NCBI RefSeq assembly: GCF_010686655.1
Contig: NZ_JAAGVY010000026.1
Span: 1-64,000, forward strand
DNA length: 64,000 nt
Source of the DNA: Cryomorpha ignava
GTDB taxonomy: Bacteria > Bacteroidota > Bacteroidia > Flavobacteriales_D > Cryomorphaceae
Reading direction: 5' to 3'
Shown one piece after another: positions 35,867-42,355 of this stretch. The position numbers and the translations under genes were made by a program. The notes beneath the pieces are model-generated. The model was not told the origin of the DNA. It did no database searches and worked only from the letters and a program-made list of their open reading frames with translations. Each line of letters begins with the position of its first letter. Positions within the stretch are counted from its first letter, which is position 1.

Positions 35867-38800
35867 TTAAAGTTTATATTGTTTTACAACAAAGAGTGAA
35901 GTGATTAGAAGTACAGCGAGAATTACAAGTGCAAATAGCCACATTGGGTTGTTGCTCCCACTTGAGTTTGTAATAGGGCTTACATCGCCAAGCAGCACCA
36001 TTCCCGACCAATAATAGGGGGCTGATAGTTCGCTGGAATTGCTTTTGATAAATGAAATTTTTGCCTGGCGAAGTGCTTGATTTTTGGGAACTCCGGATGC
36101 GAGTTTTTTATAAAATTCATGACTGATTGCCGCTGAAGTTTTTTCGTCTATTTGCCAGAGCGACATTACAATACTGGGGCAGCCGGCATAAGCAAAGCCG
36201 TGAGCCAAAGACAGCATACCTTCACTTGCGCTGGTTTTTCCTATTCCGGTTTCGCAAGCCGTAAGCACAGCAAGCTCTGCTCTAAGCGGGGTGTTGTAAA
36301 TTTCATAAACGTGCAGATAGCCATCATCTTCTTCGCTATCAGTATCGCTAGCTTTTGACAGAACCAAACGGGAAAGTAAGGGAGAAATATTATTAATCTC
36401 GGTATGGGTACCGAAATGGATAATCTTATATTTTTCAGCTTGCGACTTAAAATTATGCTCAGTTGCCTGATTTGAAACAAACGACCTTCCGCTAAAAATT
36501 CCTGCTGCATCAGATGCTGCTTCTACAGCAAAAGGTTGCTGAATTCGCTTCATATAGTTGATATCAAAAAGACTCGAATCTTTGAGGTGATTTACATAAT
36601 CTGATTTCAAATCGTCCGAAAACCCGGGAGCAAAGGCGAGTAAGCCATTTGATTGCGATCTTTTAAGATTTTTATATTGATAGGCTGTCGTGGAAGATAT
36701 TAAGTAAGAAATCGTGTAATCATAAATCAGGTAGTGGGGTTCTTTTCTCTCTGATGGCTTTATTAATGCCTCAAAATTTATATTGAATAAATCTTGATCG
36801 GGAATAATAAAAAGCTCACTGCCATCCAAATATTTCTCAATCGGCTCAAAGATGGTAGTATATAAATAAGCAGATGATTTGTAAAAGTCATTTTGATTGA
36901 GCGAGGTAATTGCAGTATTCAAATTTTGGAGCTCTTTTCGTAAATCAGGAGCATCAAATTTTAAAAGCTGGGTGTTTTTTTCATTTAGCACTATTGCAAA
37001 AACACTTGTGTCTGTCATCATATACTGTATGATATTTTGACCAGGCTTTATGAGTTCGCGTTTTATATCGTCTGCATTTACAATAAATGTGCTAAATCTT
37101 AAATTGTAATAATCGGGATATTTCTTTTGAATTAAATCTATTATTTGATCATATTCTGCTTCTATGTTAATAATATCACGACTGTCGTCGTTGGGCTCTA
37201 TCGCGCCTGACATTTCTCTTTGTAATATGCGTTCCCTCGTAATTATAGAATCTGGTACACTGGTTACCCTAAGCGAGGTGAATTTACCTAGTTGCCTTCT
37301 CAAAAGCAGCGATTTACTCTCTTCCTCAAAAGCTAGAAATTTATTTAGGTATATCTCATCGCCGGTTTGGTGATAGAGCGAATATGTTATTTCCTGTGTC
37401 TTTTCAAAAATCCTTTGATGCTCATTGTAAAATGTGAGCAAATCAGCTTCATCAGTATATAGGCCGCTCGTTTTTTGGAGGTAGATAATAGCCGTTTCCA
37501 GAAACTCCAGAGCCTCTTTCTCACTTTCAATATCTGAATTTTGGTTCAAAATGATTTTTGCCTTAGTCAAATAGGCTTCCGAGATAAAACTCGTGAATTG
37601 GCTAAGCCTGGTTTGGTAAAGTGATACCTGCTCGCTTTGCTTTTCCAGAAAAATTGCCAGCGCCATATCAACATAGTATTGAGCGCTATCAAGTTGATTT
37701 CGCTCACATTTTAGATTGGCTAACTGCGTAAAGAGTTTGCCAATTATAGGGCTATTGCCGGGGAGCGTATTCAAATATATCTTTCGTGCTTGTCTAATAT
37801 CACTTTCGGCAGATTCGTAATCTTGCAGAGCCTCATAGGCTTGTGCACGCATCAAATAGCCTTTGGCAAGTTCCTGACCAGAAAATTCATCAGTAATTTT
37901 TTTGCCGATGTTTATGGATTGGGTATAATTTTTCACTGCTCCCAGATAGTCGCCTTGATTAAATAGCACTTTAGAAACGCGCTCATAACCTATGGCTGTA
38001 TAATAGCTGTTCATTCCATAATCGGCAATATCGCCGGCAAGATATTTTTCAAAATTTGCAAGTGCCTGGTCGTATTCGCCCAGTGCAAATTGAATGCTGC
38101 CAAAAGCTTCTAAAGATTTTTTATGATCGGGATGATCAGCTACAAGATATTTCTGCCTGAGCTTTTGTACATATTTTGAAATCTGTTCAGATTTAGAAAT
38201 ATCACCAATAGAAAGATACAGCGCAGCCAGATTGTGATAATTAGAAATGAGCAGGCGTTCCTGTTGTGATTTTTGATATCCGGGTGGCTCTGTTTCCAAA
38301 AGTTGCTTTCTGATTTCAATAGCGTGATTTAAAAAGTCCTTGCTTTTTACAAGATTTCCTTCATCTTGAAATCCGAGCGATAAATTTCCATAAATATTGG
38401 CTTGATGCCTAAACCTGTCTACCGTGTCGGGCAAAAATTCGGAGAATGCCAATCCACGATATAAATAGGTCTGCGATTTCGCATACTCACCATTTCTGAA
38501 AAATACAGCACCAAGGGCATTTAGGCATTCCATCATTCGTTTGGTATAATTCAGACTGTCTTTTTCTACCGGATTCAAGGCCATTTCGAAGTGATAGATG
38601 GCTTTTTTAGCATTTCCATAAAGCATCTGATAGTCAAAGCCAAGGGAGTAGTGGGCCGTTGATTTTTCAAGAGCAGACGCATTCGGATATACCTCACAAA
38701 CAGAAAGGTAGCGCTTGTCGTTTTCAAAACAAAGACTATCCTCACCAGCTTCGATATAAATCCACGACAAGTCACTTATTGCATCGAGTAAAACCGATTT

Positions 38801-39121
38801 ATTCGCTACCTTTTCTTCAATAAAATCAACCAGAAGTTCGGTACGCCGCATTGCCTGGTTCACTTTTTTTACCGAAAGGTAAGCATGACCCAGATCATAT
38901 GTATAAAGCTTTAGTGAGTCGTAACGGGCAGTATATTTCAGATAAATAATCTGAATTTCAATGGCCTTTATGGCTTCTGTATATTTTTCAGAGGCCAGTA
39001 AAGAATCAATTTTATCTTTTTGTGAAAAGAAGAGCGATTCATCAAATTCTTGTGCATTTGATGAAATCATCATTACGCTAAAAGTGAAGAGCAAAATCCG
39101 TTTCAGCGCAGTGATTTTCAT
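35867..39121 (-). CDS. TPR-CHAT protein: exported caspase-like protease with membrane tail
   Basis: The 1084-aa product has an N-terminal signal peptide (about residues 1-23), a long array of tetratricopeptide repeats (about 30-560), a linker, and a CHAT domain (about 750-1040). The catalytic pair is H906 in HFGTHTE and C956 in LTACETGIGK, followed by SLWQIDE. A final hydrophobic helix (about 1057-1080, WLFALVILAVLLITSLFVV) precedes a short basic tail. CHAT proteases are relatives of caspases and separase. The signal and tail suggest the bulk is periplasmic and tethered to the inner membrane. It is the third gene after an ECF sigma and a TPR membrane protein (TAATG overlap). Confidence 0.85.
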   Translation of the reverse strand: MKITALKRILLFTFSVMMISSNAQEFDESLFFSQKDKIDSLLASEKYTEAIKAIEIQIIYLKYTARYDSLKLYTYDLGHAYLSVKKVNQAMRRTELLVDFIEEKVANKSVLLDAISDLSWIYIEAGEDSLCFENDKRYLSVCEVYPNASALEKSTAHYSLGFDYQMLYGNAKKAIYHFEMALNPVEKDSLNYTKRMMECLNALGAVFFRNGEYAKSQTYLYRGLAFSEFLPDTVDRFRHQANIYGNLSLGFQDEGNLVKSKDFLNHAIEIRKQLLETEPPGYQKSQQERLLISNYHNLAALYLSIGDISKSEQISKYVQKLRQKYLVADHPDHKKSLEAFGSIQFALGEYDQALANFEKYLAGDIADYGMNSYYTAIGYERVSKVLFNQGDYLGAVKNYTQSINIGKKITDEFSGQELAKGYLMRAQAYEALQDYESAESDIRQARKIYLNTLPGNSPIIGKLFTQLANLKCERNQLDSAQYYVDMALAIFLEKQSEQVSLYQTRLSQFTSFISEAYLTKAKIILNQNSDIESEKEALEFLETAIIYLQKTSGLYTDEADLLTFYNEHQRIFEKTQEITYSLYHQTGDEIYLNKFLAFEEESKSLLLRRQLGKFTSLRVTSVPDSIITRERILQREMSGAIEPNDDSRDIINIEAEYDQIIDLIQKKYPDYYNLRFSTFIVNADDIKRELIKPGQNIIQYMMTDTSVFAIVLNEKNTQLLKFDAPDLRKELQNLNTAITSLNQNDFYKSSAYLYTTIFEPIEKYLDGSELFIIPDQDLFNINFEALIKPSERKEPHYLIYDYTISYLISSTTAYQYKNLKRSQSNGLLAFAPGFSDDLKSDYVNHLKDSSLFDINYMKRIQQPFAVEAASDAAGIFSGRSFVSNQATEHNFKSQAEKYKIIHFGTHTEINNISPLLSRLVLSKASDTDSEEDDGYLHVYEIYNTPLRAELAVLTACETGIGKTSASEGMLSLAHGFAYAGCPSIVMSLWQIDEKTSAAISHEFYKKLASGVPKNQALRQAKISFIKSNSSELSAPYYWSGMVLLGDVSPITNSSGSNNPMWLFALVILAVLLITSLFVVKQYKL

Positions 39122-39843
39122 TATTTCAATTTTTGCTGTATTGAATTGATTTTTTCTGCGAAAGGCGATTCAGATACAGGACTTACCTTTTTAATGGCCT
39201 CAGTATTTTCAGTTTTCAGCCAAGACAGTACGGCATACCACTGCGCTTTTGCTTGAAATTTTGATGAGTTTTCCAACATCACTTTCTCAAAGTAGGGAAG
39301 TGCTTCGATGTATTTTTCCTGATTAAAAAAAGAAGCGCCCAGATAATAGGTAATCGTTAAATTTTTGGGATTTTCAGCACTCAAAACTGTCCACTTCTCA
39401 ATAGATTTATCATATTTTTCTGCCTTATAATCTACCATGGCGTCGTGAAAGCTGTAATCTGCAGATGCACTCATTGGTACAGGAAGACCGGGGTCTACAG
39501 TGCTATACTGAGCAAATAGTGCATCATTATTAGATTGAAAATTTAAAGCCCAAACACTTATTGCAATAAGTGCTGCGATTCCGGCAGCAATTGCAAACCA
39601 ATTATTCTTAGACGATTTAGTTTCAAGAATCACAGTGTTGTGAATATCATTTAGGCTTTCTTTTAATCCACCGGCCTCAATGCTTAATTGAAGTTCTTTT
39701 TGAATGGCAACTTCTTCCTGAAGTTCTTGATTGTTTTTTAATTCGGCCTCAAACTCCTGTTTTTCAAGAACCATCATTTTGCCTTGCAGATAGTTCTCTA
39801 TCCTGCCAAAATCTTCAGGCGATATATTGTGTATTGAATTCAT
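39121..39843 (-). CDS. Single-pass membrane protein with periplasmic TPRs, putative anti-sigma partner
   Basis: The 240-aa product has a cytoplasmic N-terminus of about 80 residues (MNSIHNISPEDFGRIENYL), one membrane helix at about 83-100 (FAIAAGIAALIAISVWAL) and a C-terminal part with TPR-like helices (DAMVDYKAEKYDKSIEKW, AALPYFEKVM-type). It starts 10 bp after the ECF sigma stop and shares one base with the CHAT gene. By position it is the likely anti-sigma factor. The periplasmic TPRs could contact the TPR array of the CHAT protein. Confidence 0.7.
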   Translation of the reverse strand: MNSIHNISPEDFGRIENYLQGKMMVLEKQEFEAELKNNQELQEEVAIQKELQLSIEAGGLKESLNDIHNTVILETKSSKNNWFAIAAGIAALIAISVWALNFQSNNDALFAQYSTVDPGLPVPMSASADYSFHDAMVDYKAEKYDKSIEKWTVLSAENPKNLTITYYLGASFFNQEKYIEALPYFEKVMLENSSKFQAKAQWYAVLSWLKTENTEAIKKVSPVSESPFAEKINSIQQKLK

Positions 39844-39853
39844 GTTAAAGGGG

Positions 39854-40429
39854 TTAAGATAAATTATTAGTATGAAAACTTCTAAGCTTTTTCATACATC
39901 GGTACTTTAATGTTTTTACAGTTCCCGGGTCGTGATCCAGTTCAGAACCTATTTCTTCAAGGCTCATTTTCTGGTAGTAAAACCTGTTTAAAATGGCTTT
40001 GCATTTTTCGTCCAGATTTTTATACAATTCAGTGAGGTATTGCATTCTGCTATCCTCTTCCTCATTGTAATCATTATCGGCAGTTTCTTCTGGCTGATTT
40101 TCGTGAACCAGGCGCACAGTAGCTTTATGGGCTTTTGATTTAAGCTTATCGAGCCATTTAAACTTGGCGATTTGAAAAATATATCCACCAATGGTTTTAC
40201 CGCCTTGTAGCTCAAATTTGCCTTCTTTTACATTTATCCAGGCGGCCACTATAGCTTCCTGATAAATGTCCTTGGCATCTGCTTCTTTACCACTATTTTG
40301 AAGAATGTACATTTCGACGCTTTTATAGTTTTGCGCATAGATTTGCTCCATGCACTTGCGGTCATTCTGAATAAATCCCTCGGTAAGCTCGTGATCTGGA
40401 ACTTTAAAATTGACTTTTATTTGTTTCAC
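39854..40429 (-). CDS. ECF-type RNA polymerase sigma factor
   Basis: The 191-aa product has sigma region 2 (KEADAKDIYQEAIVAAWINV ... YIFQIAKFKWLDKLK) and a C-terminal region 4 HTH (YYQKMSLEEIGSELDHDPGTVKTLKYRCMKKLR). The start is GTG at 40429, preceding MKQIKVNFKV-type sequence; no better ATG lies upstream of region 2. It is the first gene of the sigma/TPR-membrane/CHAT operon and would direct expression of the operon or a wider regulon. No clear cognate promoter is visible in the 208-bp gap upstream. Confidence 0.88.
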   Translation of the reverse strand: MKQIKVNFKVPDHELTEGFIQNDRKCMEQIYAQNYKSVEMYILQNSGKEADAKDIYQEAIVAAWINVKEGKFELQGGKTIGGYIFQIAKFKWLDKLKSKAHKATVRLVHENQPEETADNDYNEEEDSRMQYLTELYKNLDEKCKAILNRFYYQKMSLEEIGSELDHDPGTVKTLKYRCMKKLRSFHTNNLS

Positions 40430-40637: not shown

Positions 40638-41345
40638 TTAGAATTGCGAAAAGTAATATGTGAAAATCATTCCGGCTAATATAGCTAGTCCAAAGCTCAT
40701 CAGGGTGCCTATTAGAATGTATTCGGTTAGCTTTCGGTCTTTGGCGCGGGTGAGGTCACCAAATCTAAAGATAGATTTTGCAGCCATTAAAAAACCAATT
40801 GCCCCCCATTGGCCTATTAGAATGAATCCAAAAACTAAAGCGCGCTCAAGCATGCCGATGTACGAACCGGCTTTTGGTAGTGCTTTCTGGCTTTGTCCCT
40901 CTTCGGTCATCTCGTTGCCCCAGTGGCTTAATGCCTGATATATAAAGAATGAGGCAGGCCGGGTTAAGAAAATCAAAGCTGTGCCTCCAGCCAAAAGAGC
41001 AGCTGAAATTTCTATCTTAGGAACTTGTGTTATATATGCCCATACAGCCACCATAACTATGAGGTGGAGCAGTTGATCTAGAAAAAACCACGTCTGTTTA
41101 TTCTTCTCATTTTGAAACTGCAACTTGCTGCCATCTATCAAAAAATGAAATACCGTAATGATAAGTGCAGCAACCCAATGGTTTAAACCGGCAATGAGAA
41201 GCAGCAGAGCAAAATGAACGACTGTATGTATATATAATTGTGGTGATCGCCATTTTAGATTGTTCTTTTGTCCGATTGACTTGGCGGTTTGCAGAAAGAA
41301 GTCACCGATTAAGTGCGCCAGAATAAATTTTATTAATAGACTCAT
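40638..41345 (-). CDS. DUF3307 integral membrane protein
   Basis: The 235-aa product has about six hydrophobic helices. The N-terminal LIKFILAHLIGDFFLQT and the IHTVVHFALLLL and VFHFLIDGSK motifs are typical of DUF3307, with conserved His/Asp residues (H11, D15, H40, H44 and D71 regions) within or next to membrane segments. No function is known for the family. It overlaps the SatD-family gene by 4 bp (ATGA), so the two are almost surely one operon under the palindrome-array promoter. Confidence 0.82.
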   Translation of the reverse strand: MSLLIKFILAHLIGDFFLQTAKSIGQKNNLKWRSPQLYIHTVVHFALLLLIAGLNHWVAALIITVFHFLIDGSKLQFQNEKNKQTWFFLDQLLHLIVMVAVWAYITQVPKIEISAALLAGGTALIFLTRPASFFIYQALSHWGNEMTEEGQSQKALPKAGSYIGMLERALVFGFILIGQWGAIGFLMAAKSIFRFGDLTRAKDRKLTEYILIGTLMSFGLAILAGMIFTYYFSQF

Positions 41346-41956
41346 TCGGTAAAGAGTTTGATGCGGTAAGTATAATAATCTATCAGAGAAAAAATCTCAT
41401 CGGCGTGTGCAACGCGTAGGCGGGCACTTACCGATGGCTGTGTAATACCAAGCTTTTTAGACAATTCTATTTGCGAAATCCCGGGGTTGGTAAATGCAAA
41501 GTAAAGCGCTTTTGCCGACGACTGTGTCCAATCTGTTGTTAACCCTTCAGCAAGCTGTAGCATAATGTTTAGCTCTTTGGTGAGCTGTTTATCGTCGCAG
41601 CTAAGTATCAGGTTTTGCTTTTTGGATTGAATGAGGTCAAAGGCTTCGCCGCTGTGTATAAATGCCGGGCCATTGCTTAGCGTTACCGCATTTGCTCTAA
41701 ATTCTACGTTTCCCAATCCTATGGAAATGCGCACGTCAAGCTGTTCAATAGTTTTTATCCCTGCTTTTAACTGAAATACCGCTTTAAAGGCGTCTTCTGC
41801 ATCTAATTCCAGTTGAAAACTATCACCGCGATAAATTTCCCAATCTTTTGGTGTTTTGCCAAATGTGTTGAGCACTTCTTTTAAAAGATTAATCCACTCT
41901 TGTGGGCTTTCCACATTTCTCGAATCAATGATGTCACCGGTAAGCACTGCTCTCAT
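41342..41956 (-). CDS. SatD-family protein with cyclase-like N-domain and C-terminal HTH
   Basis: The 204-aa product starts at the ATG at 41956 (MRAVLTGDIIDSR); the frame is open upstream only to a TTG inside the palindrome array. Residues 1-130 show GDI at 7-9, RGDSFQ at 43-48, RISIGLG at 76-82 and NGPAF near 95. This pattern resembles class III nucleotidyl cyclases (first metal Asp, GD turn, GIGxG strand). Residues of about 159-190 form a helix-turn-helix (SQIELSKKLGITQPSVSARLR). SatD is named from a streptococcal acid-tolerance operon; its biochemistry is not established to my knowledge. It is likely a DNA-binding regulator of its own operon. Confidence 0.75.
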   Translation of the reverse strand: MRAVLTGDIIDSRNVESPQEWINLLKEVLNTFGKTPKDWEIYRGDSFQLELDAEDAFKAVFQLKAGIKTIEQLDVRISIGLGNVEFRANAVTLSNGPAFIHSGEAFDLIQSKKQNLILSCDDKQLTKELNIMLQLAEGLTTDWTQSSAKALYFAFTNPGISQIELSKKLGITQPSVSARLRVAHADEIFSLIDYYTYRIKLFTE

Positions 41957-41992: not shown

Positions 41993-42000
41993 CAAATATA
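41993..42000 (-). promoter_or_regulatory. -7 element of the satD-DUF3307 operon, inside palindrome 1
   Basis: On the minus strand it reads TATATTTG, a full TAnnTTTG match, ending 37 bp upstream of the ATG at 41956. Its first four bases are the outer TATA of the palindrome nearest the gene. The same octamer recurs at 42051-42058 beside palindrome 3. No good -33 element is seen, so activation or an unusual promoter is possible. Confidence 0.55.
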
Positions 42001-42190
42001 GATTAAATACGCTATAGTCACCAGATATAGACTCAATTATCTATAAACACCAAATATAGATGAATGAATCTATAAATCGAAAATATAGAGTAAACACTCT
42101 ATAACCTGCTAATATAGACTAAAAGCTCTATAATTGTAAAATATAGAGTTAAAGCTCTATAATTTTCCAGTATAGAGGGAAAGCTCTATA
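41997..42190. repeat. Operator array: seven 20-bp palindromes TATAGA-N8-TCTATA with 29-bp period
   Basis: Palindromes start at 41997, 42026, 42055, 42084, 42113, 42142 and 42171, each 20 bp long and separated by 9-bp spacers of unrelated sequence. Copies 2-7 keep all twelve arm bases; copy 1 keeps eleven (GCTATA at its right arm). The central eight bases vary, although GC before the right arm recurs in copies 5-7. A degenerate TATAGGCTC at 42208 may be a decayed eighth site. The array fills the space between the SatD start and the tRNA terminator. A multi-site operator is the simplest reading. Confidence 0.9.
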
Positions 42191-42250
42191 TTCCTTCATA
42201 AAAAAGATATAGGCTCTTTAAAAAAGGCTAAATCGAAAAAAATTGGTCAT

Positions 42251-42278
42251 AAAAAAAGACCGTCTAAAGACGGCCTTT
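42251..42278 (-). terminator. Rho-independent terminator after tRNA-Lys
   Basis: On the minus strand GGCCGTC pairs with GACGGTC (one G-T pair) around TTTA, followed by seven T residues. It starts 5 bp from the tRNA 3' end and separates it from the palindrome array. Confidence 0.85.
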
Positions 42279-42282
42279 TTAG

Positions 42283-42355
42283 TGATCCCGCTGGGGTTCG
42301 AACCCAGGACCCCAACATTAAAAGTGTTGTGCTCTACCAGCTGAGCTACGGAATC
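42283..42355 (-). tRNA. tRNA-Lys (anticodon TTT)
   Basis: The 73-nt cloverleaf has acceptor GATTCCG pairing with CGGGATC (one T-G wobble), D-arm AGCTCAGCTGGTAGAGCA, anticodon loop CTTTTAA with TTT, and T-arm GGGTTCGAACCCC-type. The discriminator base is A. CCA is not encoded. Confidence 0.96.

Follow-up and report, generated by a model that had tools for sequence, protein, structure and literature searches.

The window (the whole stretch of 64,000 nucleotides analysed here) carries a two-gene operon on its reverse strand, in which satD (41342..41956, 204 aa) is followed by a DUF3307 gene (40638..41345, 235 aa) that overlaps the satD stop by 4 bp. The start of satD is likely the ATG at 41956, not the TTG at 41995 given by the ORF finder, and with this start the gene lies 41 bp from a series of seven 20-bp palindromes, as stated in the original prediction. 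Palindromes 1 to 7 occupy positions 41997..42016, 42026..42045, 42055..42074, 42084..42103, 42113..42132, 42142..42161 and 42171..42190, the first being closest to the satD start and the seventh most distant from it, and they follow each other at start-to-start distances of exactly 29 bp. Coordinates and period agree with the original prediction, which had assigned the form TATAGA-N8-TCTATA to all seven units; the arms are perfect in six of them, and palindrome 1, TATAGATTAAATACGCTATA, has a single mismatch in the right arm. The arms are kept from unit to unit while the 9-bp spacers are unrelated. A tRNA-Lys gene (42282..42355, reverse strand) is located upstream of the array and is followed by a terminator-like hairpin at approximately 42250-42275. 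The array, sitting between this hairpin and satD, likely begins directly past the probable end of the tRNA-Lys transcript. On the same strand, 3' of the DUF3307 gene, a sigma-factor-like ORF, a membrane-anchored ORF and a 1084-aa TPR-CHAT-like ORF were recognized by eye at 35867-40429.

A scan of the whole 5,006,455-base genome returned six perfect copies of TATAGA-N8-TCTATA, all within the array, and none of the reversed pattern used as control. Sites with one mismatch outside the array numbered 24, against 25 for the reversed control, and thus represent background. The palindrome is not widespread at unrelated loci, and no wider regulon of perfect or one-mismatch sites, for which a scan had been suggested, rose above background in this genome. 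With a period-and-palindrome detector the array scored 31.5, compared with a maximum of 3.5 among 486 other tiles of the window.

The SatD protein of the window matches the Pfam family PF16264, that of satD in S. mutans and S. pyogenes, over residues 5-182 with 47.1 bits, above the cut-off of 29. Its AlphaFold model (pLDDT 97.7) contains an N-terminal domain at approximately residues 1-123 and a C-terminal winged HTH at approximately residues 145-182. The N-terminal domain shares its fold with GTP cyclohydrolase III (Z 9.7), adenylyl cyclase (8.9) and GGDEF (8.8) structures, and also with Cas10/Cmr2, although with Z-scores of 8-10 these matches are moderate, and activity does not follow from a common fold alone. 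By sequence profile, Asp8 in a TGDI motif (codon 41933..41935, reverse strand) and Asp45 in an RGDSF motif (codon 41822..41824, reverse strand) align with the matching motifs of the adenylyl cyclase Ma1120 (E 0.003), and are the predicted first and second metal ligands of a palm domain. SatD, according to the model, joins a winged HTH to a nucleotidyl-cyclase/GGDEF/Cas10-type palm domain, for which a nucleotide is the probable ligand or substrate. SatD resembles class III adenylyl cyclases and GGDEF proteins in the palm fold and the two metal-binding Asp motifs, but differs from them in being a DNA-binding fusion, in its weak sequence similarity and in an activity that is only predicted. The nucleotidyl-cyclase-type domain had been overlooked in the earlier reading of this DNA. 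The literature that we found on satD deals with an association with acid tolerance and with essentiality; in it, SatD is linked neither to a cyclase-type fold nor to an operator array, nor is it paired with DUF3307.

The second protein of the operon scored 91.6 bits against PF11750 (cut-off 23) and is predicted to be an all-helical membrane protein, and carries His, Asp and Gln residues that are invariant. Its model has a pLDDT of 92, and a PDB relative was found neither by sequence search nor by fold search.

The satD upstream regions of 104 distinct SatD loci were collected and screened by an unsupervised detector for chains of 20-bp palindromes with any period from about 24 to 35, with a threshold of 5.5 (the 99th percentile of dinucleotide shuffles is 5.0). 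Arrays above the threshold were found in 75 of the 104 regions, compared with one of 196 control promoters and none of the 486 window tiles. The sole control promoter above the threshold, L139:2660-2921, has a weak array of TTGCTTATTACGATAAACAT and its relatives upstream of a 397-aa ORF. Intervals of 28 bp (n=128) and 29 bp (n=56) prevail, and 26 bp was seen just four times. Three to four palindromes per array are usual, with a mode of three, and the seven of the window are among the highest numbers; a held-out locus, L181, exceeds them with eight palindromes (TATCGTC...GACGATA) at an exact 28-bp spacing. Both the family-wide occurrence of the arrays and their lineage-specific sequence had escaped the earlier reading.

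The lettering of the arms varies by lineage, including TATCGG, TATTAC, TATAAG, TATAGA and others, and even the nearest homologues of the window SatD have arrays of a different palindrome, TATCGG-N8-CCGATA. The expectation of the same palindrome and period at homologous SatD/DUF3307 loci is therefore borne out for the architecture, which recurs upstream of orthologues, but not for the letters, and a literal search for TATAGA would miss most arrays. Conservation is essentially confined to the arms, as had been proposed, since the identity among the units of homologous arrays reaches about 0.8-1.0 over the five outermost bases at either end, compared with about 0.3-0.7 at the other positions. A two-unit TATTAC pattern was found only at satD in eight genomes and is absent from ten others tested. 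The array architecture is also present upstream of a Vibrio plasmid satD, with a 28-bp period, and two weaker, sub-threshold units 28 bp apart were found in Pseudoalteromonas and Salinivibrio. Twenty-nine of the 104 loci fall below the threshold, some of them with one or two clear units. The same detector found no array in one genus group of about ten loci (f29) and at a few other loci. Members of this group (L104, L107, L109, L111, L113-L116, L118 and L119) have the helix type SRQAIGDSL with an insertion before the helix, and DUF3307 is present.

Half-sites alternate in orientation and follow each other at 14 bp inside a palindrome and at 14-15 bp from one palindrome to the next, and by arithmetic three units at 28 bp make 84 bp, or eight turns at 10.5 bp per turn. 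This equal half-site spacing makes the frame ambiguous, so that two held-out arrays were detected in an alternative frame (CCGATA-N8-TATCGG). An exact period and a repeat architecture would also be displayed by an array of iterons for replication or partition, by a CRISPR-like locus or by a recent tandem duplication with no function, and regularly spaced palindromes are shared with CRISPR arrays. Arms are kept while spacers are unrelated, however, and a single gene family is preceded, in many lineages and in Vibrio, by one architecture spelled in different letters. The satD arrays further differ from CRISPR arrays in spacers of 8-9 bp, in the lack of adjacent Cas genes and in their promoter location, and the operon of the window codes for SatD and DUF3307, in line with the earlier dismissal of a CRISPR. 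All three readings are contradicted by the family-wide array pattern, and we rejected them as scarcely credible.

The consensus of the Bacteroidota -7 box is TAnnTTTG. An exact box, TATATTTG, lies at 41993..42000 on the reverse strand and combines TTTG with the final four bases of palindrome 1, and a second exact TATATTTG occupies the equivalent place in palindrome 3 (42051..42058, reverse strand). The former has an offset of 16, which is common to 12 homologous arrays. Exact -7 boxes starting in the last palindrome occur in 30 of the 75 arrays, compared with 2.1 expected, and the commonest offsets of 7, 16 and 18 overlap the arms or the centre of that palindrome. Because the -7 boxes start in the last palindrome, autorepression is the likeliest outcome of SatD binding; SatD on the promoter-proximal palindrome would cover the -7 box and most likely shut off the operon. 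The presence of exact boxes at more than one palindrome of the window, together with the many arrays whose last palindrome lacks an exact box, would suit SatD as an activator on repeats that form several tandem promoters, but binding at the commonest offsets would block the polymerase, and we regard activation as improbable.

When SatD residues were paired with seven arm positions in an unbiased scan of 49 proteins (less than 65% identical), residue 175 with arm base 5 came first (z 14.7) and residue 178 with base 4 second (z 9.0), followed by residue 178 with base 5 and residue 173 with base 2. These residues belong to the recognition helix, which in the window comprises residues 173-182 (QPSVSARLRV; 41411..41440, reverse strand), and they co-vary with the arms throughout the family, residue 173 pairing with arm bases 1-2. 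At residue 175, Ser goes with G at base 5, Ala with A, and Asn mostly with T, and at residue 178, Glu or Asp goes with C at base 4, Ala, Leu or Ile with A, and Arg or His with T. The window helix QPSVSAR conforms to these pairings, with Ser175 fitting G at base 5 and Ala178 fitting A at base 4 in TATAG. The independent locus L187 has the helix QPSVNSR and arms that likewise read TATAGA. Its satD homologue is interrupted by an in-frame TAA (G845), yet DUF3307 and the TATAGA array are present, and it is either a pseudogene or a sequencing error. The Vibrio helix TATASK and the helix TATISK of a Bacteroidota locus (L117) are both accompanied by ATTAGC arms.

Arm similarity follows helix similarity (partial r 0.21) and not palm-domain similarity (-0.03), a result reached in 0 of 2000 permutations. 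On a tree constructed from the palm domain only, seven branches carry changes of both residue 175 and base 5 (p 3e-5) and nine carry changes of both residue 178 and base 5 (p 2e-5), and residue 178 with base 4 is weakly supported (p 0.04). Predictions for held-out loci, made from tables trained on the initial set, were correct for base 5 in 19 of 24 cases (baseline 11) and for base 4 in 19 of 26 (baseline 14), the errors including the two loci with arrays in the alternative frame.

The orthologue arrays, their rarity elsewhere and the helix-arm co-variation, all of them sequence tests, support the original prediction that the array is a multi-operator for the adjacent HTH protein. We estimate a probability of about 80% that the array is SatD's own autoregulatory operator for the satD-DUF3307 operon. 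Since SatD binding is itself inferred and global regulators often bind multi-site promoters, another host DNA-binding protein could occupy the array instead; we consider this quite unlikely, because the arms co-vary with SatD helix residues and not with the palm domain, the arrays are exclusive to satD in the tested genomes, and different SatD helices go with different arms. The palindromes are also foldable as RNA and lie upstream of a gene, as would be expected of hairpins in a leader transcript that serve as an attenuator or processing site. This is very unlikely, as the co-variation indicates protein-DNA reading and the arms are A+T-rich; moreover, the -7 box at the gene-proximal end places most units upstream of the transcript.

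As an autoregulator, SatD would form dimers that read the palindrome arms through residues 173, 175 and 178 of the recognition helix. Such dimers would cover adjacent palindromes side by side, perhaps cooperatively, and the alternating half-sites at 14 bp and 14-15 bp would suit a regular SatD chain along the DNA.

DUF3307 directly follows satD in 102 of the 104 loci. All 102 SatDs with DUF3307 share Asp8, Asp45, Gly82 and Gly103 without exception, whereas the two satD genes without it have His or Lys at position 8 and have lost Gly103, Ser12 and Arg76; the association is drawn from only these two genes lacking DUF3307, and a further, divergent homologue, L199, aligns ambiguously at Asp8. One of the two, L088, has a three-unit array above the threshold with arms that fit its helix. 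On these small numbers, DUF3307 appears to be the reason why the palm active site is retained. Because this site is kept only where DUF3307 is present, a twofold control of DUF3307 by SatD is most likely, which would combine repression of the gene with nucleotide chemistry in the palm domain. Loss of SatD would then be harmful while DUF3307, a putatively toxic protein, remains. In S. pyogenes, which has a distant SatD, satD is essential by Tn-seq yet present in only about 71% of genomes (PMC11323703), a pattern to be expected if the gene keeps a harmful partner under restraint. This pattern and the loss of the Asp in the absence of DUF3307 suggest a module in which SatD checks DUF3307, and we give slightly less than even odds to a restraint exerted through the palm domain.

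The distribution of satD is patchy, with 102 of 392 genomes in a phylum sample and 16 of 199 in an order sample, and no SatD was found in a phage database or in viral contigs. PADLOC was run on 83 satD neighbours, drawn from 20 loci, and on 83 control proteins for comparison. It gave a few single proteins, including one type I restriction specificity subunit and one protein identified as RmuC by Pfam, and the Pfam assignments were mostly housekeeping, so that a defence-island setting was not supported and no claim of a defence system is made for satD-DUF3307. PADLOC has no convincing model for SatD or DUF3307. On a Sphingomonas insulae plasmid (L124:2483-5564), satD-DUF3307 has as its direct neighbour an operon for a Pycsar-type effector and cyclase, and a TIR gene is close by.

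These housekeeping neighbourhoods without clear defence enrichment, and the want of a PADLOC model, would fit an ordinary metabolic or acid-stress operon, in which the array is still the SatD operator and a nucleotide-responsive repressor controls a harmless membrane enzyme or transporter, DUF3307. The sat genes of S. mutans are associated with acid tolerance, according to work cited in PMC11323703. Such an operon competes only with the proposed restraint of DUF3307 by SatD, and its probability falls a little short of an even chance. Against it stand the patchy distribution, the strict coincidence of a lost palm active site with a missing DUF3307, and the essential yet accessory satD of S. pyogenes (PMC11323703).

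A restraint of DUF3307 by SatD would have parallels in known two-gene systems. AbiEi of the type IV AbiE system and HipB are autoregulated antitoxins with palindromic operators. As at satD, adjacent palindromes precede a pair of genes in one operon, the first of which codes for an HTH regulator, and the SatD HTH is weakly similar to HipB by sequence. The satD operon differs from them in the palm domain of SatD, in its many evenly spaced palindromes and in the toxicity of the partner, which for DUF3307 is inferred. In Panoptes, the mCpol/Cas10-like palm enzyme OptS restrains its membrane partner OptE (PMC12657218). Both are two-gene operons of a palm-type nucleotide enzyme, putative in the case of SatD, and a membrane partner, and OptS structures are among the fold matches of SatD; unlike Panoptes, SatD has a DNA-binding HTH and an operator array. 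The membrane effector of Panoptes is of the S-2TM-beta (OptE) type or a CARF/SAVED protein, and DUF3307, whose model matched no PDB fold, displays no sign of being S-2TM-beta. Panoptes is the closest working analogy. We tentatively propose, as a possibility that falls clearly short of even odds, that satD-DUF3307 is an undescribed two-gene signalling module, similar to Panoptes or toxin-antitoxin systems, in which the palm enzyme would be both the repressor of the operon and, via nucleotide chemistry, the restraint of a membrane effector, and in which an unchanging lattice geometry would have accommodated repeated divergence of the protein-DNA recognition code.

An autoregulatory operator array is a known kind of element, and what is new here is the unusual regulator and the family-wide recognition code. 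Dozens of regulators are available here with their operators, alike in geometry but not in letters, and together they constitute a readable specificity code for a winged HTH, which may be used in studies of regulator-operator co-evolution and in building orthogonal regulators. The function of the satD-DUF3307 module is a more interesting question than the array itself. SatD and DUF3307, domains of obscure role, are brought together as a defined module whose mechanism can be tested. The link between the palm active site and DUF3307 points to a new putative nucleotide signal.
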